A stretch of DNA of 35,218 bases, from the IMG/VR virus record IMGVR_UViG_3300037041_000117, positions 1 through 35,218 of that record; one strand, 5' to 3'. Position numbers and translations under genes: made by a program. Numbering within the stretch: position 1 is the first letter of the stretch; every line of letters begins with the position of its first letter. Shown piece by piece: positions 40 through 35,190 of the stretch. Under the pieces are notes generated by a model that was not told where the DNA came from, ran no database searches, and saw only the letters and a program-made list of their open reading frames with translations. The stretch is from a virus.

Positions 40-498
40 TTGTCTAATGGTCAGTCCTCGGGCATAAATAGCATTGAAAAAGTCGTCCAACTGGTTAGCG
101 AACTATCTGAAAAGACCCCGCTTCCAGAAGGTGTTGAACTGCGAACTGAAGATGAGATTATAATTTGGGGACAGTTCACGCGCGCGCGCGCACACGATGG
201 CTGGCGTGACTTTGATTTGCTTTTGGTTGCCAAAGCTGTTCGGCTCGAAGCAGATATCCGCAAGCATCAGAAAACTTTAGACCGTATGGGCATCATTGTA
301 AAAAATGATCGCGGTACGCCAATCCCGAATCCGTTAATTTCAATTATCGATTCTTTTCAGCGGCAACAACTTGCCATTATAAGAAGTCTTAGCCTAAATC
401 AAACAAGCCAAGACCCAAGAACTTTGAATGGGCATGGTGCAGAGCAGAATAAAATTTCTCGCGCTATCAACTCTTTCGATGATCTAATAGCAAGATGA
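40..498 (+). CDS. terS: Terminase small subunit (P27-type)
   Basis: Binds phage DNA and hands it to the large subunit to start packaging. The 152-residue length, the central segment around residues 42-85 and the later region with NDRGTPIPNP then FQRQQL (about residues 89-112) match the P27/Terminase_4 family as I know it. The start is TTG: an in-frame stop lies at 10-12 and no ATG precedes the conserved part; AAAAGG at 26-31 gives a ribosome site 8 nt upstream. Its stop overlaps the start of the large terminase by 4 nt, as expected for a packaging operon. The exact start is the only real uncertainty. Confidence 0.88.
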   Translation: MSNGQSSGINSIEKVVQLVSELSEKTPLPEGVELRTEDEIIIWGQFTRARAHDGWRDFDLLLVAKAVRLEADIRKHQKTLDRMGIIVKNDRGTPIPNPLISIIDSFQRQQLAIIRSLSLNQTSQDPRTLNGHGAEQNKISRAINSFDDLIAR

Positions 499-2027
499 CG
501 AATCTAACTACACGCGGTGAAAGAGTAATTGCCTTTATTGAGCATTACTGTAAAGTGCCAAGTGGAAAAAATGTTGGAGTAGATTTTAAACTTGATAAGT
601 TTCAAAAAAAATTCATTCTCGATGTTTACGATAATCCTCACGGTACTCGTAGGGGCTATCTGAGCATTGGGAGGAAAAATGGTAAAACAGCTCTAATCGC
701 TTGCATTTTATTAGCACATTTGGTCGGACCAGAGGCTAAAAAGAATAGTCAAATTATTTCGGGAGCAATGAGCCGAGAACAAGCCGCAATAGTTTATGAC
801 TTAGCTTCAAAGATAGTGGCTATGTCTCCTAAGCTCCGAGTTATTGTTCGTGAAGTTCCAAGCTCAAAAAAGCTTTGCGGCTTGCCAATGAATACAGAGT
901 ACAGGGCGATCAGCGCGGAAGGTAAGACAGCTCATGGGCTATCGCCAATCTTGGCCATCCTTGATGAGCTTGGTCAGGTCAGAGGACCAAGTAGCGAATT
1001 TGTAGATGCAATCACAACTAGTCAGGGTGCGCATGAATCACCTTTACTGATTGCAATCTCAACTCAAGCACCGAACGACAATGACTTGTTTAGCATTTGG
1101 TTAGATGACGCTAAGACAAGTGACGATAAAAATATTGTTTGCCACTTATATGAGGCGACAAAAGATTGTGATTTAGAAGACCCTGCTGAGTGGAAGAAAG
1201 CAAATCCTGCATTGGGTTCTTTTAGAAGCATGGAAGATGTAATTGAACAAGCCGCTAGAGCAAAGCGGATGCCAAGTTTCGAACCGACTTTTCGCAACCT
1301 AGTGTTGAATCAGCGAGTTGAGATGGTTGCCCCATTCGTAAGCAGAGGCGTTTGGATTCTCAATAGTTCTGAGCCTGACGAGTCGGTCTTTTATGAAGAG
1401 CCTGTTTATGTGGGTCTTGACCTATCTGGTAAGACTGACTTAACAAGCATGGTGATGATTGCATGGCGAGGCAAATGGCACGTAAAGCCAATATTCTGGA
1501 CTCCTGAGAAGGGTCTTAAAGACAGGTCGCGTAAAGATCGAGCGCCCTATGATGTTTGGGAATCACAAGGTTACATTCGCACAACTATTGGTGCATCCAT
1601 TGACTATGAAATGGTTGCGAGAGAGATAGTAGAAATACTTACAGACTGTAATGTCGTTGCTCTTGCATTTGATAGATGGCGATTCGATTTGCTTAAGAAA
1701 GAAATCGATGAACTTGGCTTTGTGTTACCCTTAGTCCCATTCGGTCAAGGCTTTAAGGATATGGCTCCTGCGATTGATTCACTTGAGACAATCCTTTTGA
1801 ATGAGCAATTAGCTCATGGTGGGCATCCAGTTCTAACAATGTGCATGGCAAATGCAAGAGTAGAAAAAGATGCGGCAGGAAATAGAAAATTAAATAAAGC
1901 AAAAGCAACTGGTCGCATTGATGGCGCGGTCGCATTAGCGATGGCTGTAGGAGTTGCGGGTATGTCCAAACAAACAGAAGGCGATCTAGACGGATTCTTA
2001 GATGCACCACTTGTAATGAAACACTAA
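495..2027 (+). CDS. terL: Terminase large subunit, ATPase-nuclease
   Basis: Motor and nuclease that cuts and pumps DNA into the prohead. The 510 residues carry a Walker A variant SIGRKNGKTAL (about 57-67), Walker B LAILDELG (about 153-160), then a C-terminal RNase H-like nuclease with acidic positions in YVGLDLSG, AFDRWRFD and RIDGAVALAMA. This matches the Terminase_1 family (HK97-like). ATG at 495 overlaps the small subunit stop; only 4 nt separate its stop from the portal gene. The pairing with a P27 small subunit and an HNH gene at the far right end is typical of cohesive-end HK97-type phages. Confidence 0.96.
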   Translation: MTNLTTRGERVIAFIEHYCKVPSGKNVGVDFKLDKFQKKFILDVYDNPHGTRRGYLSIGRKNGKTALIACILLAHLVGPEAKKNSQIISGAMSREQAAIVYDLASKIVAMSPKLRVIVREVPSSKKLCGLPMNTEYRAISAEGKTAHGLSPILAILDELGQVRGPSSEFVDAITTSQGAHESPLLIAISTQAPNDNDLFSIWLDDAKTSDDKNIVCHLYEATKDCDLEDPAEWKKANPALGSFRSMEDVIEQAARAKRMPSFEPTFRNLVLNQRVEMVAPFVSRGVWILNSSEPDESVFYEEPVYVGLDLSGKTDLTSMVMIAWRGKWHVKPIFWTPEKGLKDRSRKDRAPYDVWESQGYIRTTIGASIDYEMVAREIVEILTDCNVVALAFDRWRFDLLKKEIDELGFVLPLVPFGQGFKDMAPAIDSLETILLNEQLAHGGHPVLTMCMANARVEKDAAGNRKLNKAKATGRIDGAVALAMAVGVAGMSKQTEGDLDGFLDAPLVMKH

Positions 2028-6024: not shown

Positions 6025-6323
6025 TCCATCAAGGGGGTAATAGCGGTTATCAAGCAATCAATCTTGCTTACTTGTGGGGCGCAAAGACTATTGTTCTGCT
6101 AGGATTGGATTGTTCGCTTTCACCCAAAGGCGAAGCGCATTGGTTTGGTCAGCATGGTGATGGATTAACAAATCATCAACCATTCCAGATGTGGCAAGCT
6201 AAGTTTCCGCAACTTGCAGTTGATCTGCAAGCTGAAGGTGTTAGAGTAATTAACGCAAGCAGACAGACAGCCCTGACTTGCTTTGAGCGTATGACGCTTG
6301 AGGAAGCAATTAAAGTATGTTGA
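5670..6323 (+). CDS. MptE/DUF115-like Rossmann protein (start codon absent)
   Basis: From 5742 this frame reads VACIIASGPSLTEEDCNLV, WATIAVNDSYRRAPFSDCLY, ACDEQWWRVHYERV, GVIHQGGNSGYQAINLAY, KTIVLLGLDCSL, HWFGQHGDGLTN and VRVINASRQTALTCFE, a phage protein family resembling 6-hydroxymethylpterin pyrophosphokinase/DUF115 glycan enzymes; the GPSL nucleotide-binding motif and paired acidic positions are visible. The frame opens after a stop at 5667-5669 and has no ATG, GTG or TTG before 6072, which is deep inside the conserved region. Expression must therefore come from a frameshift out of the 5542 gene, an atypical start such as ATT at 5685, or a corrected base. The gene after it is a glycosyltransferase-like protein, overlapping by 7 nt. 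Confidence 0.82.
   Translation, partial: NSKPPIGDRPISSYDRTAGRWAGRVACIIASGPSLTEEDCNLVGDQGWATIAVNDSYRRAPFSDCLYACDEQWWRVHYERVKSEYEGECWTQDEGASKRYKINRIGSEYKEGLGTNGVIHQGGNSGYQAINLAYLWGAKTIVLLGLDCSLSPKGEAHWFGQHGDGLTNHQPFQMWQAKFPQLAVDLQAEGVRVINASRQTALTCFERMTLEEAIKVC
5679..5685 (+). other. C-run heptamer, candidate -1 frameshift site or indel
   Basis: In the upstream frame the codons read AAC CCC CCA, giving the heptamer C CCC CCA, which fits the X XXY YYZ pattern. A -1 slip joins the upstream 46 residues to the downstream conserved frame. A one-base homopolymer length error in the assembly would produce the same picture. Confidence 0.55.
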
Positions 6324-7036
6324 CCTTATTGACAGCAACAGGGGCAAGACCAAAGGCGTGGGCTATTTGCGAGCTTTGGATGGCGAGACAGACGTACAGA
6401 GGAGATGTTCGTTGGATCATTGTTGATGATGGCGAGCAAGCACAGCCAATCACATTCAGCAAAAAGAACTGGACATTAGAAGTAATTAGACCCAATCCAT
6501 TCTGGCAAGATGGAATGAATACGCAAGCGCGTAATCTTCGGGCGGGGATGGATATTGTTGGCGCAGATGAGAGAGTTGTCTTTATTGAAGATGACGATTG
6601 GTATGCGGCTGATTGGCTTGAGACAGTTGATAAGAAATTTGAGAAAGCTGAGTTAATTGGTGAGGCTAATGCTCGCTATTACAACTTACCTCAAAAATCT
6701 TATCGACCAATGTTCAATACTTTGCACAGCAGTCTTTGCTCATCCGCTATTCGTGGTCAGGCATTAGATACATTTAGATCAGTTTGTCGAGCGCAAATTA
6801 AGTTCATTGATGTATTGCTGTGGCAAGCTCATGGTAACAATCATTTGTTTAGTGGTGAGCGTGTTCTTGGAATCAAGGGCATGGAAGGTCGCGGTGGCAT
6901 TGGAGTTGGTCACGCAAAAGAATTCCGTGGAACAAGAGATGTTGGCGGTAAAATTTTGAAATCGTGGATTGGTGATGATGCTTTGGTTTATAAGCCAGAG
7001 GAAAAATTAAATGACGCAATTAGTTCGGAAAATTAA
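6317..7036 (+). CDS. GT-A type glycosyltransferase-like protein
   Basis: 239 residues starting MLTLLTATGARPKAW, with WIIVDDGE (about residues 34-41) and VVFIEDDDWYAADWL (about 88-102), the two acidic motifs expected for nucleotide-sugar and metal binding in GT-A/GT2 glycosyltransferases. Such genes are known to sit in head blocks of some phages beside the MptE-like gene; their acceptor is unknown and could be a virion protein or host surface glycan. Overlaps the upstream frame by 7 nt and the connector gene by 26 nt. Confidence 0.82.
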   Translation: MLTLLTATGARPKAWAICELWMARQTYRGDVRWIIVDDGEQAQPITFSKKNWTLEVIRPNPFWQDGMNTQARNLRAGMDIVGADERVVFIEDDDWYAADWLETVDKKFEKAELIGEANARYYNLPQKSYRPMFNTLHSSLCSSAIRGQALDTFRSVCRAQIKFIDVLLWQAHGNNHLFSGERVLGIKGMEGRGGIGVGHAKEFRGTRDVGGKILKSWIGDDALVYKPEEKLNDAISSEN

Positions 7037-15099: not shown

Positions 15100-15933
15100 A
15101 TGGCTATTACTGCATTACCAACGCCTCCGAGTCGGGATGATCCAACAAATTTTGCGACACGCGCAGATGCGTTCTTAGGTGCATTACCTACATTCGCAAC
15201 AGAGGCAAATGCTCAAGCGGCAACTGTGAATGCTGATGCCGTTAGTTCTGCGGCTAGTGCGGTCACAGCTTCTACTGCGGCGGCGGGAGCTACTGCGGCG
15301 GCTAATGTAACGAAGTGGATAAGCGGAACTACTTACACAGAAGGCGTAATGGTATGGTCGCCAATTACTTATCTTTCTTACCGAAGAAAATCTACTGGCG
15401 GTGGAACAACTGACCCTAGTTCTGATTCTACTAATTGGGCGCAAGCGGCAGGAACTGGTGATGTAACGCTTGCAACAGCGCAGACCTTTACAGGTACTAA
15501 GACTTTCTCAGGCACATCATCTACTCAAGCGATTGTTTTAAACGATGCCGCAGAGGTAGCAACAGTATCAGCTACTGCGGCTACAGGCACTATTGCTTAC
15601 GACATCACAACGCAGTCAGTGCTTTACTACACAAGTAACGCAAGTGCTAACTGGACAGTTAACTTCAGAGCCTCTAGCGGTACTTCATTGAATACTTTGA
15701 TGAGCACAGGTCAATCAATGACTGTAGCTTTCTTAGTCACTCAAGGCTCTACTGCTTATTACAACTCTGCTGTGCAAGTGGATGGCACAACTTCTGGAGT
15801 TACTACACGTTGGTTAGGTGGCGCACCTACTGCGGGAAATGCTAGTGGCATCGATTCCATAAGGTATCTCATAATTAAAACGGGAAGTGCGACTTTCACT
15901 ATCCTTGCCTCAGTAACACAGTTCAAAGCCTAA
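15100..15933 (+). CDS. Tail fibre protein
   Basis: 277 residues. The N-terminal region (LPTPPSRDDPTNFATRADAF) is the usual anchor in small phage fibres, then an Ala-rich helix (about 39-70), a binding-like patch KWISGTTYTEGVMVWSP, and a C-terminal strand-rich region (TFTGTKTFSGTSSTQAIVLN). Ribosome site AAAAGGAAAA precedes ATG. Its stop overlaps the homing endonuclease start. Confidence 0.78.
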   Translation: MAITALPTPPSRDDPTNFATRADAFLGALPTFATEANAQAATVNADAVSSAASAVTASTAAAGATAAANVTKWISGTTYTEGVMVWSPITYLSYRRKSTGGGTTDPSSDSTNWAQAAGTGDVTLATAQTFTGTKTFSGTSSTQAIVLNDAAEVATVSATAATGTIAYDITTQSVLYYTSNASANWTVNFRASSGTSLNTLMSTGQSMTVAFLVTQGSTAYYNSAVQVDGTTSGVTTRWLGGAPTAGNASGIDSIRYLIIKTGSATFTILASVTQFKA

Positions 15934-16607
15934 TGAACACAGCCTACGTTTATACGCTGACAGACCCTAGAAATGGGATGCCCTTTTACGTTGGTAAAGG
16001 GCATGGAAAGCGTTGCGAGTTCCATTTGGATGAGGCTAAGTATTACACCAAGCGCAAGTCAAAGAAGTTAAACAAGATTCGTAAACTTATGTCGCTTGGA
16101 ATGAAGCCAATCATTACCAAAGTTGAGGAAAATGTTTCTGATGCTCAGGCTATTGATTTTGAGTGTTTATTGATTGCTGAAATGCGTGATATTGGAATAC
16201 CATTGACCAACATGACAGATGGCGGTGATGGTGCTAAAGGATATAAGCATACTGAAGAACACAAACAAAAGATGCACGAATTGTTTGCTGATCGTGTTTT
16301 TACAGAAGAACATCGTCAAGCAATGTCTAAGCCTAAGTCTGAAGAAGGTAGAGCAAATATTGCTAGAGCCAGATTGACTACAACTTATAGACCATCTGAA
16401 GAAACAAAGCGTAAAACTTCTGAAGCATTGTTAGGTCGCCCTAGTCCAATGAAAGGACGCAAACAATCTGATGAAGCAAAAGCTAAAATGAGTGCATATC
16501 GAAAGGGTTTGCCAAAACCTAAAGTTGATTGTCCTCATTGCCAAAAACATATCGCTGTTAATGTTGCAAAGCGTTGGCACTTTGATAACTGTAAAGATAA
16601 GGAATAA
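15933..16607 (+). CDS. GIY-YIG homing endonuclease with NUMOD3 repeats
   Basis: 224 residues. The N-terminus has the GIY-YIG nuclease core: YVYTL, then PFYVGKG (about 17-23), Arg27 in GKR, and Glu77 in FECLLI. Residues about 104-190 contain repeated NUMOD3-type DNA-binding units (TEEHKQKM, TEEHRQAMS, SEETKRKTSEAL, SDEAKAKMS). The end has CPHC followed by a distant HFDNC, a possible zinc ribbon. It is wedged between two fibre genes with 1- and 2-nt spacing, as expected of a free-standing homing gene. Confidence 0.92.
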   Translation: MNTAYVYTLTDPRNGMPFYVGKGHGKRCEFHLDEAKYYTKRKSKKLNKIRKLMSLGMKPIITKVEENVSDAQAIDFECLLIAEMRDIGIPLTNMTDGGDGAKGYKHTEEHKQKMHELFADRVFTEEHRQAMSKPKSEEGRANIARARLTTTYRPSEETKRKTSEALLGRPSPMKGRKQSDEAKAKMSAYRKGLPKPKVDCPHCQKHIAVNVAKRWHFDNCKDKE

Positions 16608-31447: not shown

Positions 31448-31496
31448 TACGGGGGGTGGTCATCGCCTAATCCCCAAAAAAAATACACGGTGGGGT
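31448..31496 (+). repeat. G-run/A-run repeat, copy A
   Basis: TACGGGGGGTGGTC, then CCTAATCC, a run of eight A, then CGGTGGGG. Related to copies B and C in order and spacing. The remaining gap to 31549 is AT-rich and holds TATAAA (near 31530) and the AAAAGG ribosome site of the next gene. Confidence 0.65.
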
Positions 31497-31549
31497 TATT
31501 CTAAATTAACTTATTTTTGTGTTAGATTACTTATAAATAAAAGGCAAAT

Positions 31550-32341
31550 ATGACAAGCAAACTTGCAATTAAGTATAAAAAAACAGAAGAACTAATCCCT
31601 TATGTTTTAAATAGTCGCACTCATACAGAAGCACAAGTTGCACAGATCGCGGCAAGTATTAGGGAGTTTGGATTTACTAATCCTATTTTATTAGATGGAG
31701 AAAGTGGAATTCTTGCAGGGCATGGCAGGGTTATGGCGGCTCGCTTACTTCAACTTGATGCTGTCCCAACTATTGAAATTGCCAATCTTACAGAATCACA
31801 AAAAAAGGCATATGTAATTGCTGACAATAAGTTAGCGTTAAATGCAGGATGGGATGAAAACTCACTTGCTCTAGAGATAGCAGAATTAAAGAACCAAGAT
31901 TACGACATTGAATTGCTTGGTTTTAGCAATGATGAGTTAAAAGAATTAAATGCAAAGTTGCTTGATGGAATTAACAAAGAAATACTTAATGAAAAATATA
32001 CTAACAAGATCGATGTACCAATTTATAAACCACAAGGTGAGAAACCTGAAATAAGTGAACTTTTAGATAAGTCACGATATGAAACCCTAATAGAAGAAAT
32101 TTATAACGATAAAGAAATCAATGATCAAGAAAGAGCATTTTTGATTGATTCAGCAACTCGGCATATTGTTTTTGATTACCAACAAATTGCAGAATACTAT
32201 TCACACTCAAACGAGAGGATGCAAAAGTATATGGAAGATTCTGCACTAGTAATTATAGATTTTGATAAAGCAATAGAAAATGGATTTGTTAAGCTAACAT
32301 ATGAGTTAAAAGAAATGTTTGATATTGAAGACGATGAATAA
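31550..32341 (+). CDS. ParB/sulfiredoxin-fold protein with unassigned C-terminal domain
   Basis: 263 residues. Residues 1-~110 are a ParB N-terminal domain: ELIPYVLNSRTHTEAQVAQI, SIREFGFTNPILLDGE, GILAGHGRVMAARLL, KKAYVIADNKLALNAGWD; the GHGR motif binds nucleotide in this fold. No ParB helix-turn-helix follows, so it is not a partition protein. The C-terminal half (ERAFLIDSATRHIVFDYQQI, EYYSHSNERMQKYMEDSALV, IIDFDKAIENGFVKL) looks like a conserved domain I cannot name. Overlaps the next gene by 8 nt. Probably guides or modifies DNA together with its two neighbours. Confidence 0.85.
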   Translation: MTSKLAIKYKKTEELIPYVLNSRTHTEAQVAQIAASIREFGFTNPILLDGESGILAGHGRVMAARLLQLDAVPTIEIANLTESQKKAYVIADNKLALNAGWDENSLALEIAELKNQDYDIELLGFSNDELKELNAKLLDGINKEILNEKYTNKIDVPIYKPQGEKPEISELLDKSRYETLIEEIYNDKEINDQERAFLIDSATRHIVFDYQQIAEYYSHSNERMQKYMEDSALVIIDFDKAIENGFVKLTYELKEMFDIEDDE

Positions 32342-33287
32342 CGAATACACATTTATAAGGCATGGTCAAACGTATTGGAACAAAAATGGAATCATGCACG
32401 GTCAGTATGATATTCCGTTAAATGAAACAGGAAAAAAACAAGCAAAACAAATTGCAGAAGAATTAAAAAATGAACATTTTGATTTGTGTTTTTCTTCTAC
32501 ATTGAAAAGAGCAAGATCAACAGCTTATAGCATTTTGCTAAATCATAAAAATACAAAAATTTTTTATGAAGATAGACTTAAAGAATTAAGTAAGGGACTG
32601 CTTGAAGGTAAGCATTTAAACGGTGAAAAACTATTAAAAAATGAAGATTATAAGTTTTTAAAAAAATTTAACATTGAAAGTAAAAAAGACTTTTATCTAA
32701 GAGTTAAGGATTTTGTAAACGAAATTGAAGGTAAATACAAAAATAAAAAAATATTGATCGTTGCTCATAGTGGCACTATAAAAATGTTGTATTTTTCTTT
32801 CTATTATCCAAAATTACAAATTCATAAAGCCTACTATGATTTACATATCAAAAACTGTAAAGCTTATAAACCTGAAACAATGAAAATAAAGGATAAAAAA
32901 ATGAAAATTGGATTTTTCCCAATGGTTGCAGACATATTGCATTCTGGACACGTTTTATCTCTAGAAGAAGCAAAAAAGCATTGCGACTTTTTAATTGTTG
33001 GACTTCACTGCAAGCCAAATTATAAAAATCCTCAACAATCAATCTATGAAAGATATATGCAGTTAAGAGCTGTTAAATGGATTGATGAGGTGATACCTTA
33101 CGAGAACATTGATAAGGATAAAGATATGTTCATTTCATTGGACTATGATGTTTATTTTTTAGGTGAAGATCATAAGAATGAAGAATGGGAATTTAAAGAT
33201 TTATTGCAAGAATTAGAAAAAGAAATTATTTATTTAAGAAGAAAACACAATTACAGTAGTAGTAGGATTAAAAATGAAAGCAAATAA
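32334..33287 (+). CDS. Histidine phosphatase fused to TagD-like nucleotidyltransferase
   Basis: 317 residues from ATG 32334. Residues 1-~165 form a histidine phosphatase: FIRHGQTYWN (RHG, His10), CFSSTLKRARSTA, and IVAHSG (His145). Residues ~190-317 form a cytidylyltransferase-like domain: MKIGFFPMVADILHSGHVLS with HSGH at 203-206, YERYMQLRAVKWIDEVIPYE, VYFLGEDH and RKHNYSSSRIK, as in glycerol-3-phosphate cytidylyltransferase. ATG at 32901 with AAAGGA 7 nt upstream could give the second domain alone. Strongly AT-rich (14 G/C in the 60 nt from 32461). Likely makes or recycles an activated NDP/CDP building block for the next gene's enzyme. Confidence 0.88.
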   Translation: MNNEYTFIRHGQTYWNKNGIMHGQYDIPLNETGKKQAKQIAEELKNEHFDLCFSSTLKRARSTAYSILLNHKNTKIFYEDRLKELSKGLLEGKHLNGEKLLKNEDYKFLKKFNIESKKDFYLRVKDFVNEIEGKYKNKKILIVAHSGTIKMLYFSFYYPKLQIHKAYYDLHIKNCKAYKPETMKIKDKKMKIGFFPMVADILHSGHVLSLEEAKKHCDFLIVGLHCKPNYKNPQQSIYERYMQLRAVKWIDEVIPYENIDKDKDMFISLDYDVYFLGEDHKNEEWEFKDLLQELEKEIIYLRRKHNYSSSRIKNESK

Positions 33288-34143
33288 AAAATTTGCAGTT
33301 TTTATTCTTACACATGGAAGACCTGATAATGTTATAACTTATCATTCTTTGCGTAATCATGGATACACTGGAAAAATTTATCTCATAGTTGATGATGAAG
33401 ATAAAACTTTAGATGATTACAAGCAAAAATACAAAAATGAAGTAATTGTATTTAGCAAAAAGGAATATGAAAATAAGTTCGACATAATGGACAATTTTCA
33501 AAATAATAAAGTAATTGTTTATGCTAGAAATGCTTGTTATGACATAGCAAGAAATTTAGGTCTTGATTATTTTTTTGAATATGAAGATGACTACACGCAG
33601 TTTTTATATAGATGGGTTGAGAAAGATTCACTAAAAGCAAAACAAATAAAAAATCTAAATGAATTGTTACTTGCAATGATAAATTGTTTAGATGAAACGA
33701 ACTCAACAACAATAGCTTTTGCACAAGGTGGTGACTTTATTGGTGGTGCTGGGTCGTTTAAAAATAATACATTTAAAAGAAAAGCAATGAATAGTTTTGT
33801 TTTTAAGGTAAATGAAGACCCATCAAAAGACACAATATTTATTGGAAGAATGAATGATGATGTCAATACCTATTTAACCAATGGAAAATTAGGAAAATTA
33901 TTTTTTCAAATTTCACCAATTTGTTTGGTTCAACTTCCCACGCAATCAAATGCCGGAGGCAATACCGAAGCGTATAAGTCCTACGGCACATATGTCAAAT
34001 CTTTTTATAGCGTCATTGCATCGCCAAGCTGTTGCAAAATTGATTTGATGGGAAGAATAAACAAAAGGATTCATCATCGCATAACATGGAGAAATGCTGT
34101 TCCTAAAATCTTAGATGAAAAAATTAGAAAGCCAAGGATCTAA
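33274..34143 (+). CDS. TET-associated-type glycosyltransferase (TAGT family)
   Basis: 289 residues. FAVFILTHGRPDNVITYHSL, KIYLIVDDEDKT (about 34-45), VIVYARNACYDIA (80-92), YFFEYEDDYTQF with acidic motif 104-106, FIGRMNDDVNTYL, LPTQSNAGG and RIHHRITWRNAVPKIL. I recognise this as the TET-associated glycosyltransferase family described from phage DNA-base modification clusters, where it acts on oxidised 5-methylcytosine. No TET/JBP oxygenase or methylase was seen in this window, so the acceptor here is open. TAGGA ribosome site; overlaps the fusion gene by 14 nt. Confidence 0.85.
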   Translation: MKANKKFAVFILTHGRPDNVITYHSLRNHGYTGKIYLIVDDEDKTLDDYKQKYKNEVIVFSKKEYENKFDIMDNFQNNKVIVYARNACYDIARNLGLDYFFEYEDDYTQFLYRWVEKDSLKAKQIKNLNELLLAMINCLDETNSTTIAFAQGGDFIGGAGSFKNNTFKRKAMNSFVFKVNEDPSKDTIFIGRMNDDVNTYLTNGKLGKLFFQISPICLVQLPTQSNAGGNTEAYKSYGTYVKSFYSVIASPSCCKIDLMGRINKRIHHRITWRNAVPKILDEKIRKPRI

Positions 34144-34169
34144 TTTTAGTTACAGCTCTATAAAATAAA

Positions 34170-34216
34170 CACGGGGGGTCTATACCCTAAAATCCTAAAA
34201 AAAAACGGGTCGGGGG
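34170..34216 (+). repeat. G-run/A-run repeat, copy B
   Basis: CACGGGGGGTC, then ACCCTAAAATCCT, nine A, then CGGGTCGGGGG. Lies 27 nt after the glycosyltransferase stop, at the other border of the AT-rich cassette from copy A. Confidence 0.65.
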
Positions 34217-34245
34217 TTTAAAATAAATTTTTCAGGGCTTGTACC

Positions 34246-34623
34246 ATGCAATATGTTGATTTTATTAAACTAGATGATGATGAGATTAACATTGATAAGC
34301 GACTGCGTAATTGGGCGATATGGGTAAGACCCAAGCGGGGATTTGGCGCAGTTCACCCTATGTTTCGTTGGTATAGACCCACAGAGCATTGGCAAGGCAT
34401 TGGTGACAAATCATCCTGTGATCTACCAGATGCTGAAGCTGTTGAGCGAGTGATGCGTGATCTACCACAAGTTGAACGATTGGCAATCAAATGGTATTAC
34501 ATTGAATTTAGCTCACCGACCAAGATATGCAAAGTCTTGGGACTTTCATTGATTGATTTAAGAATGATAGTAAGGAAAGCTAGGAAAAATATTACAAGAC
34601 TTCTACGGGGTGGTCTCTCATAA
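34246..34623 (+). CDS. Q-like late regulator with sigma-region-4-like HTH
   Basis: 125 residues. Begins MQYVDFIKLDDDEINIDKRL and ends in a helix-turn-helix resembling sigma70 region 4 or Q antiterminators: VERLAIKWYYIEFSSPTKIC, LGLSLIDLRMIVRKARKNIT. Composition returns to the phage average (32 G/C in the 60 nt from 34321). Its place immediately before a strong promoter and the packaging genes suggests control of late transcription. Exact mechanism (antitermination or activation) is inferred. Confidence 0.75.
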   Translation: MQYVDFIKLDDDEINIDKRLRNWAIWVRPKRGFGAVHPMFRWYRPTEHWQGIGDKSSCDLPDAEAVERVMRDLPQVERLAIKWYYIEFSSPTKICKVLGLSLIDLRMIVRKARKNITRLLRGGLS

Positions 34624-34650
34624 TTCCTAAAAAAAATATGGGCGGGGCAT
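34604..34650 (+). repeat. G-run/A-run repeat, copy C
   Basis: TACGGGGTGGTCTC, then CATAATTCCT, eight A, then GGGCGGGGCAT; closest to copy A. It overlaps the stop codon of the Q-like gene. Confidence 0.6.
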
Positions 34651-34680
34651 CTAAAAAAAAACAACGTGGCTTGGTGCAAA

Positions 34681-34884: not shown

Positions 34885-35190
34885 ATGTCAAATTCTGATA
34901 AGCGATTAAGTGGTTGGAAGCTACAGAAGATTCGTCATTTAAGAATGATGGAAACGCCTTTATGCTTGCATTGTCAAGCAAAGGGTATTGTAAAGCTCGG
35001 TGAAGAATTAGATCACATTGTGCCAATCTCTAAGGGAGGTACAAATGATGGATCAAACCTTCAAATGCTTTGCAAGCAATGTCATCTTACAAAGACGATA
35101 AACGATCTTGGCTACAGACCAAAAGCAAAAATTGGTCTAGACGGATGGCCTCAAGAGGAAGACAATTCTTCAAAAGGGGGGGGGCATTGA
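34885..35190 (+). CDS. HNH endonuclease, packaging-associated
   Basis: 101 residues. KIRHLRMMETPLCLHCQAKG, ELDHIVPISKGGTNDGSNLQ, MLCKQCHLTKTINDLG form a CxxC-DH-N-CxxCH HNH site. HNH proteins encoded directly before terminase genes assist cos cleavage in HK97-type phages. No good ribosome site precedes the ATG. The gene ends in a G-run coding KGGGH that is part of the candidate cos region. Confidence 0.92.
   Translation: MSNSDKRLSGWKLQKIRHLRMMETPLCLHCQAKGIVKLGEELDHIVPISKGGTNDGSNLQMLCKQCHLTKTINDLGYRPKAKIGLDGWPQEEDNSSKGGGH

Follow-up and report, generated by a model that had tools for sequence, protein, structure and literature searches.

A recurrent phage gene cassette suggests a glycosyltransferase of two components, probably acting on DNA, with an optional donor-making module

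Background

What does a TAGT glycosyltransferase modify, and with which donor, when its gene lies beside those for a ParB-domain protein and a histidine phosphatase-nucleotidyltransferase fusion? This question is raised by a three-gene cassette in a linear IMG/VR virus record of 35,218 bases (the whole stretch of DNA analyzed here, hereafter the window), which represents an HK97/HK022-type (lambdoid) phage.

A TAGT that acts on DNA is the beta-glucosyl-HMC alpha-glucosyltransferase of phages T2 and T6, as described in the accessible text of a recent survey (NAR 2026, PMC13216743). The same text lists 288 of 753 phage genomes that encode a TAGT without alpha/beta-GT; these "solitary TAGTs" were regarded as potential novel transferases. 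Genes for ParB domains are known to adjoin, or to be fused to, DNA-modifying enzymes, with a role that is not established in the accessible parts of the relevant papers (PMC12783734, PMC12704722). One such neighbor is CmoX, a cytosine-modifying enzyme that forms carboxymethylcytosine (PMC12783734, accessible part).

In this study, we analyzed the cassette, searched for its relatives in environmental and named phages and in prophages, and weighed the reactions in which its products may take part.

Results

A compact, AT-rich cassette in a lambdoid phage

The TerL gene of the window (495-2027) shares 61.5% identity with the terminase large subunit of HK022 and precedes the genes for portal, protease and capsid. 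In the right part of the record lie NinB, a Q-like gene and two HNH genes, one of them YbcO-like and the other terminal. The cassette (31550-34143, + strand) is located between the YbcO-like gene, one of the nin-type genes, and the Q-like gene. A sequence-only reading had described it as three overlapping genes that may form a new modification system for DNA bases or glycans, and coordinates and Pfam matches confirmed the three genes. The features are as follows (residue numbers refer to the respective protein; CTD, C-terminal partner domain).

31449..31510, + strand: direct-repeat copy r1, ~60 bases, left of the cassette; specific to the window
31550..32341, + strand: ParB-domain protein, 263 aa, first gene of the cassette (Pfam, PHROG, Foldseek)
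31550..31969, + strand: ParB/Srx-like N-terminal domain, residues ~1-140 (PHROG 498, PADLOC MTase_II)
31985..32314, + strand: CTD, the constant TAGT-partner domain, residues ~146-255 (alignments; TAGT downstream in CTD-first loci)
32334..33287, + strand: histidine phosphatase-nucleotidyltransferase fusion, 317 aa from the ATG at 32334 (Pfam, PDB, NCBIfam)
32334..32873, + strand: histidine phosphatase domain, with RHG 9-11, R59, E84 and H145 invariant
32895..33284, + strand: TagD/HldE-type nucleotidyltransferase domain, with H203-x-G-H206, R303 and S308-S309 invariant
33274..34143, + strand: TAGT glycosyltransferase (PF20691), 289 aa (Pfam, PHROG 842, fold prediction)
33583-33591, + strand: TAGT motif E104-D105-D106 (alignment)
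34165..34235, + strand: direct-repeat copy r2, between TAGT and the Q-like gene

The genes, all on the + strand, are tightly packed: the ATG of the fusion at 32334 overlaps the stop codon of the ParB gene (ATGAATAA), and the start of the TAGT gene overlaps the end of the fusion by 14 bases. The cassette had also been said to be far more AT-rich than its flanks. This was exact, as the 60-mers at 32461 and 34321 again contained 14 and 32 G/C, respectively. The G+C content of the ParB, fusion and TAGT genes is 33, 27 and 30%, with a GC3 of 22% for the cassette, against 37-50% for most other genes; of all 2,594-base stretches in the sequence, the one from 31501 has the lowest G+C (29.5%), and the next lowest outside this region has 37.9%. 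In relatives, the trio was lower in G+C than its flanks in all 53 loci (mean difference 10 points, maximum 23), and thus the AT-richness is not due to chance. Duo cassettes differ from their flanks by 3 G+C points.

In the window, three direct repeats of ~60 bases bracket the cassette and Q. Movement of the cassette by means of flanking repeats was considered and rejected because such repeats are not general in relatives (median z 0.5). Matches of the repeats to the ends of HK022 or c5 were no better than those of shuffled sequences, and the same was true of promoter and terminator counts; searches for RNA families returned none.

The third gene encodes a predicted GT-A glycosyltransferase

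The TAGT protein matched PF20691 with 122 bits (cut-off 27.5, E = 3.6e-35) and also PHROG 842. Besides E104-D105-D106, it has a second acidic motif, N194-D195-D196, and residues D105, D106, D196, K170 and R85 are invariant in TAGT alignments. A PDB sequence search gave no match. The structural model, although modest (pLDDT 67), was matched by Foldseek to GT-A enzymes (E = 2e-5, probability 1.00), the closest of which include the protein hydroxylysine galactosyltransferase COLGALT1. We therefore regard the protein as a predicted GT-A glycosyltransferase; the assignment made from sequence alone, for which a different fold would have been fatal, survived this comparison.

The constant partner of TAGT is a C-terminal domain rather than the ParB fold

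The ParB-domain protein matched PHROG 620 ("ParB-like", E = 3.4e-63) and, by Foldseek, ParB/Noc (1e-6); its ParB_N match in Pfam (E = 5.5e-4) is below the cut-off. Its residues 4-144 matched PHROG 498 (DNA methyltransferase, E = 4.6e-48) and residues 7-136 matched PADLOC MTase_II. Judged by these profiles, the N-terminal domain is the same as that found in phage DNA methyltransferase fusions. The protein scored 24 bits against TIGR00180 (cut-off 58.45), its C-terminal domain differs from that of the canonical ParB partition protein, and no ParA partner was matched among the window genes scanned. By profile and context, it is not a canonical ParB partition protein.

The CTD is predicted to be helical, comprises ~110 residues, and has neither a Pfam family nor a PDB match. 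It is better conserved in alignments than the ParB part of the same protein, and in several phages it stands alone beside TAGT without a ParB domain. When CTD was used as the query, which was built from TAGT-linked copies, TAGT was found downstream in 77 of 77 distinct CTD-first loci among the best 80 of 555 matches. All 28 records of named phages with CTD also carry TAGT. These are phages of E. coli, Salmonella, Lactobacillus, Vibrio and Nocardia, the haloarchaeal virus HHTV-2, and one unclassified virus. A divergent copy occurs in a Porphyromonas phage, and none was found on plasmids.

The proposal that the ParB protein directs the process to DNA was not borne out in that form. We rejected the ParB fold as the part essential for targeting: it can be exchanged or missing, and it is CTD that is constant; some copies of the ParB domain also lack the GHGR-type motif.

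The core pair recurs in many phages

A survey of 141 distinct TAGT genes revealed 53 loci, in environmental phage contigs, with the order ParB-CTD-phosphatase-nucleotidyltransferase-TAGT, and 61 loci with ParB-CTD-TAGT, 11 of which are near a contig end. Smaller classes have the C-terminal domain alone, or the nucleotidyltransferase alone, with TAGT. The three-gene order thus recurs in more than 50 contigs, contrary to the lack of recurrence that would have refuted the sequence-only reading. The fusion is missing from over half of the loci with TAGT. As read from these gene orders, the unit is a two-component core (CTD and TAGT) with an optional donor module, and no fixed trio; the ParB domain and the donor genes are options around the core.

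The most common downstream neighbor is the terminase large subunit (one cluster, in 105 of 188 loci), and recurrent neighbors are mostly terminase, replication and recombination genes. The core pair occurs in viruses of E. coli, Lactobacillus, Nocardia, Porphyromonas, Vibrio and Haloarcula. TAGTs are 70-80% identical between phages whose TerL proteins are only 24-28% identical; this difference, together with the AT-richness of the trio relative to its flanks, argues that the trio moves between phages. Its spread across unrelated terminases and hosts is consistent with a mobile anti-defense module.

The fusion as a candidate donor module

The N-terminal half of the fusion matched His_Phos_1 (E = 5.7e-39, 134 bits), with R9, H10, G11, R59, E84 and H145 invariant in 11 sequences, and is assigned by these motifs to branch 1 of the histidine phosphatase superfamily. 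It resembles the alpha-ribazole phosphatase CobC (106 bits). The C-terminal half matched CTP_transf_like (PF01467; E = 2.4e-14, 54.1 bits, cut-off 21) and PDB entry 1coz (E = 1.5e-12), and H203, G205 and H206 are invariant; its assignment is to the cytidylyltransferase-like superfamily (PF01467). Scores against TIGR01518 (TagD glycerol-3-phosphate cytidylyltransferase; 59.1 bits, equivalog cut-off 165.4) and TIGR02199 (HldE heptose-1-phosphate adenylyltransferase; 50.2 bits, equivalog-domain cut-off 181.5) were far below the respective cut-offs and so do not assign a particular donor to the fusion. In cellular genomes, we found weak matches to the nucleotidyltransferase only and none of full length, and in named phages only the two halves, as separate proteins.

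The nucleotidyltransferase-linked TAGTs form one supported clade in a quick tree (35 rows, support 98). At residue 104, with which the DDD motif begins, all 35 members of this clade have E and 83 of the 86 others have D; N230 and M72 also switch in the clade. We read the change at residue 104 as an adaptation to a different donor, although one clade amounts to about one event. As the co-variation rests mainly on this clade, ancestry may also be its cause. Elsewhere, an unrelated TAGT (L205) adjoins its own nucleotidyltransferase, and in a 115-kb phage (L182) a nucleotidyltransferase lies inside a TAGT array. In each of the 53 trio loci, the fusion separates CTD from TAGT, and nucleotidyltransferase-only variants mostly keep this slot. 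The phosphatase is missing from these variants, which suggests that it provides an accessory step.

The sequence-only reading had assigned the supply of an activated donor to both halves of the fusion. The part concerning the nucleotidyltransferase is supported by its co-clade distribution and the linked D to E change, and the part concerning the phosphatase is not, as this domain is optional. The suggested polyol donor is likewise unsupported and fits awkwardly with a GT-A enzyme.

A copy of the core pair in E. coli prophages

The copy in an E. coli phage led to prophages of this species, in which the order is trkG, ParB-CTD, TAGT and terminase. At least 80% of the pair, with reading frames intact or not, is present in 887 of 5,426 complete E. 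coli genomes (~16%). In K-12 MG1655, all that is left of the pair is a stub, the gene ynaK of the Rac prophage, with 89 aligned residues; CTD and TAGT are gone. We also considered ydaY as a TAGT remnant and rejected it, as it is not homologous; only the ynaK stub matches. Some E. coli copies are labeled "GREB1-related" by PGAP. GREB1 itself is reported to glycosylate proteins.

Search for acceptor-making enzymes

In 18 trio-type records, which, like the others searched here, may be fragments, we detected no thymidylate-synthase family member (the control was positive in 9 genomes), no C5-methylase, and no Tet_JBP domain (for which the control was silent). 2OG-FeII_Oxy_3 was not detected in 32 records of trio and duo phages. 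Apart from the Tet_JBP search, these results agree with the earlier remark that a base-oxygenating partner is missing. One N6/N4 methylase was found in the search of trio genomes, and one of 27 other records (Vibrio phage Va1) has a thymidylate-synthase family member.

Known DNA-acting TAGTs need a hydroxylated base, and the cassette TAGT would therefore need a direct or new acceptor. As no acceptor-making enzyme was found, the acceptor may be a canonical base, may be made by CTD or the host, or the target may not be DNA; the TAGT superfamily may include protein-glycosylating enzymes. We favor DNA as the acceptor on the basis of family and context.

Discussion

With moderate confidence, we interpret the cassette as encoding a glycosyltransferase of two components that probably acts on DNA, plus an optional fusion that makes its donor. 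TAGT and the CTD at the C-terminus of the ParB-like protein would act together as the core. Most likely, they transfer a sugar or a sugar-like group to phage DNA that has been replicated but not yet packaged; the tagged DNA may be protected against host nucleases. In the donor branch, the phosphatase would trim a phosphorylated or bisphosphorylated precursor, and the nucleotidyltransferase would join the remaining phosphate to CTP or ATP, yielding an NDP-donor for TAGT. Only this phage and a clade of relatives would have such a dedicated donor, and phages without the fusion presumably draw on an NDP-sugar that is common in the host. The ParB-fold domain, where present, may be a swappable NTP-binding or DNA-associated module. 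We infer the DNA target, the donor chemistry and its order, and the anti-nuclease role. A more specific version is tentative: TAGT and CTD may modify a base without a hydroxylated precursor made by the phage, either a canonical base directly or an acceptor created by CTD, with the fusion-made NDP-donor used in this clade.

If the target were a protein, TAGT and CTD would act on a phage structural or packaging protein or on the ParB-CTD protein itself. The similarity of the TAGT model to COLGALT1, the PGAP label, the apparent lack of a base-hydroxylating gene and the usual proximity of terminase genes are all compatible with this idea. We nevertheless consider it unlikely, as the family member of known activity acts on DNA in the accessible text of the cited survey (PMC13216743), and DNA methyltransferase fusions have the same ParB domain. 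In addition, the pair is exchanged among phages whose terminases are unrelated, which makes a specific structural-protein target unlikely. An RNA, a tRNA or the nucleotide pool, with an effect on host translation or on an anti-phage signal molecule, would also explain why no base-hydroxylating enzyme was found, and the CobC-like phosphatase could act on a nucleotide-like substrate; but no RNA-binding domain was recognized and the ParB association points to DNA, so that we regard such targets as very improbable.

Enzymes similar to TagD and HldE make donors for teichoic acid and the LPS core. The NCBIfam matches of the nucleotidyltransferase domain to these enzymes, and the location of the E. 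coli copy in prophages, bring to mind a serotype-converting or exclusion moron whose donor feeds a glycan that blocks superinfection. Here too the probability appears very small: the cassette is not linked to a flippase, a polymerase or a membrane protein, the 289-aa TAGT has no further domain, the hosts range from Gram-positives to haloarchaea with no common surface glycan, and the constant partner is linked to ParB rather than to a membrane protein. Finally, the core pair could act on DNA and the fusion be an unrelated hitch-hiker, such as a cofactor or NAD salvage gene, given the many loci without it and a sequence that does not by itself reveal the substrate. The fixed slot between CTD and TAGT, the independent nucleotidyltransferase-TAGT linkages in L205 and L182, and the D to E switch in the TAGT clade that goes with it make this quite improbable, and we retain the donor-supplying role for the fusion.

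Solitary TAGTs thus gain a constant partner domain, together with a donor module whose presence goes with an altered nucleotide/metal motif in the transferase, and the E. coli prophage pair offers a laboratory-ready representative of them. If DNA is modified, this hypermodification would be widespread and lack a known base-hydroxylating step, and it would matter for phage defense, phage engineering and DNA-modifying reagents. A precursor-free reaction of TAGT and CTD, if it occurs, would be a new DNA modification chemistry common to viruses of bacteria and archaea and to many E. coli prophages.

Relation to known systems

The cassette TAGT resembles the T2/T6 alpha-glucosyltransferase in PF20691 and PHROG 842 membership and GT-A fold (PMC13216743, accessible text). 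However, T-even phages produce 5-hmC and possess a first glucosyltransferase, whereas a gene of the hmC-synthase family was detected in none of the 18 trio-type records. The arabinosyl-cytosine pathway of Mosigvirus (RB69/NP) likewise pairs a sugar-activating gene cluster with a transferase; according to the accessible part of its description (PMC13390438), its acceptor comes from a 5-hydroxy-dCMP synthase of the thymidylate-synthase superfamily, of which the search of the 18 trio-type records found no member. TagD and domain II of HldE share the HxGH and C-terminal Arg/Ser motifs with the cassette nucleotidyltransferase domain, which, unlike them, is fused to a histidine phosphatase.

The ParB-methyltransferase and ParB-CmoX modules place an N-terminal domain of the same kind beside a DNA-modifying enzyme (PMC12783734, PMC12704722, accessible parts). 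That enzyme is a methyl- or carboxymethyltransferase, whereas the cassette has a glycosyltransferase and another C-terminal domain. In the accessible solitary-TAGT and ParB-domain literature, we found no description of CTD, of the fusion or of their pairing. The cassette TAGT is tied to CTD, and a CTD search did not match the distant TAGT phage Ah1. Overall, the cassette fits the published description of a solitary TAGT, and the CTD partner, the donor fusion, the link between clade and residue, and the E. coli prophage copy go beyond that account as given in its accessible text (PMC13216743).

Direct repeats and additional genes in the window

The cassette, together with the Q-like gene to its right, is flanked by three direct repeats of about 60 bases, each laid out as a G-run, an A-tract and a second G-run. 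Aligned in pairs, they give local scores of 51-53, where shuffles do not exceed 28, and no copies of these repeats were found in relatives. Two further genes lie among the structural genes.

6317-7036, 239-aa protein between the capsid and connector genes
15933-16607, GIY-YIG/NUMOD3 homing-type endonuclease amid the tail genes
31449-31510, direct repeat
34165-34235, direct repeat
34600-34660, direct repeat

The 239-aa protein matches Glycos_transf_2 weakly, with an E of 0.002 that falls short of the cut-off, and matches no PHROG.

Variant arrangements and related loci

A 115-kb viral contig (L182) carries a nucleotidyltransferase gene inside an array of four to five TAGT glycosyltransferase paralogues, and a CTD-TAGT-CTD-TAGT order in another contig (L257) is a tandem duplication of the partner domain and TAGT. 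At L205:345-1591 the order is CTD-TAGT-nucleotidyltransferase; this nucleotidyltransferase is more distant, position 104 of the TAGT (first residue of its DDD motif) is Asp, and the linkage is an independent association. In E. coli K-12 MG1655, ynaK of the Rac prophage (L302:3378-3641) is a stub left by truncation of the ParB-CTD gene, with both the CTD partner domain and TAGT deleted; other E. coli have intact copies. The terminase large subunit of Porphyromonas phage005b (L008:6441-8927) probably holds an intein, as Hom_end and LAGLIDADG matches precede its ATPase match.

Genome ends

Natural genome ends appear to lie near the window ends. A nine-G run occurs at the right end (35170-35190), downstream of the terminal HNH gene, and HK022 likewise has a nine-G run past its terminal HNH gene, both close to the presumed cos end.
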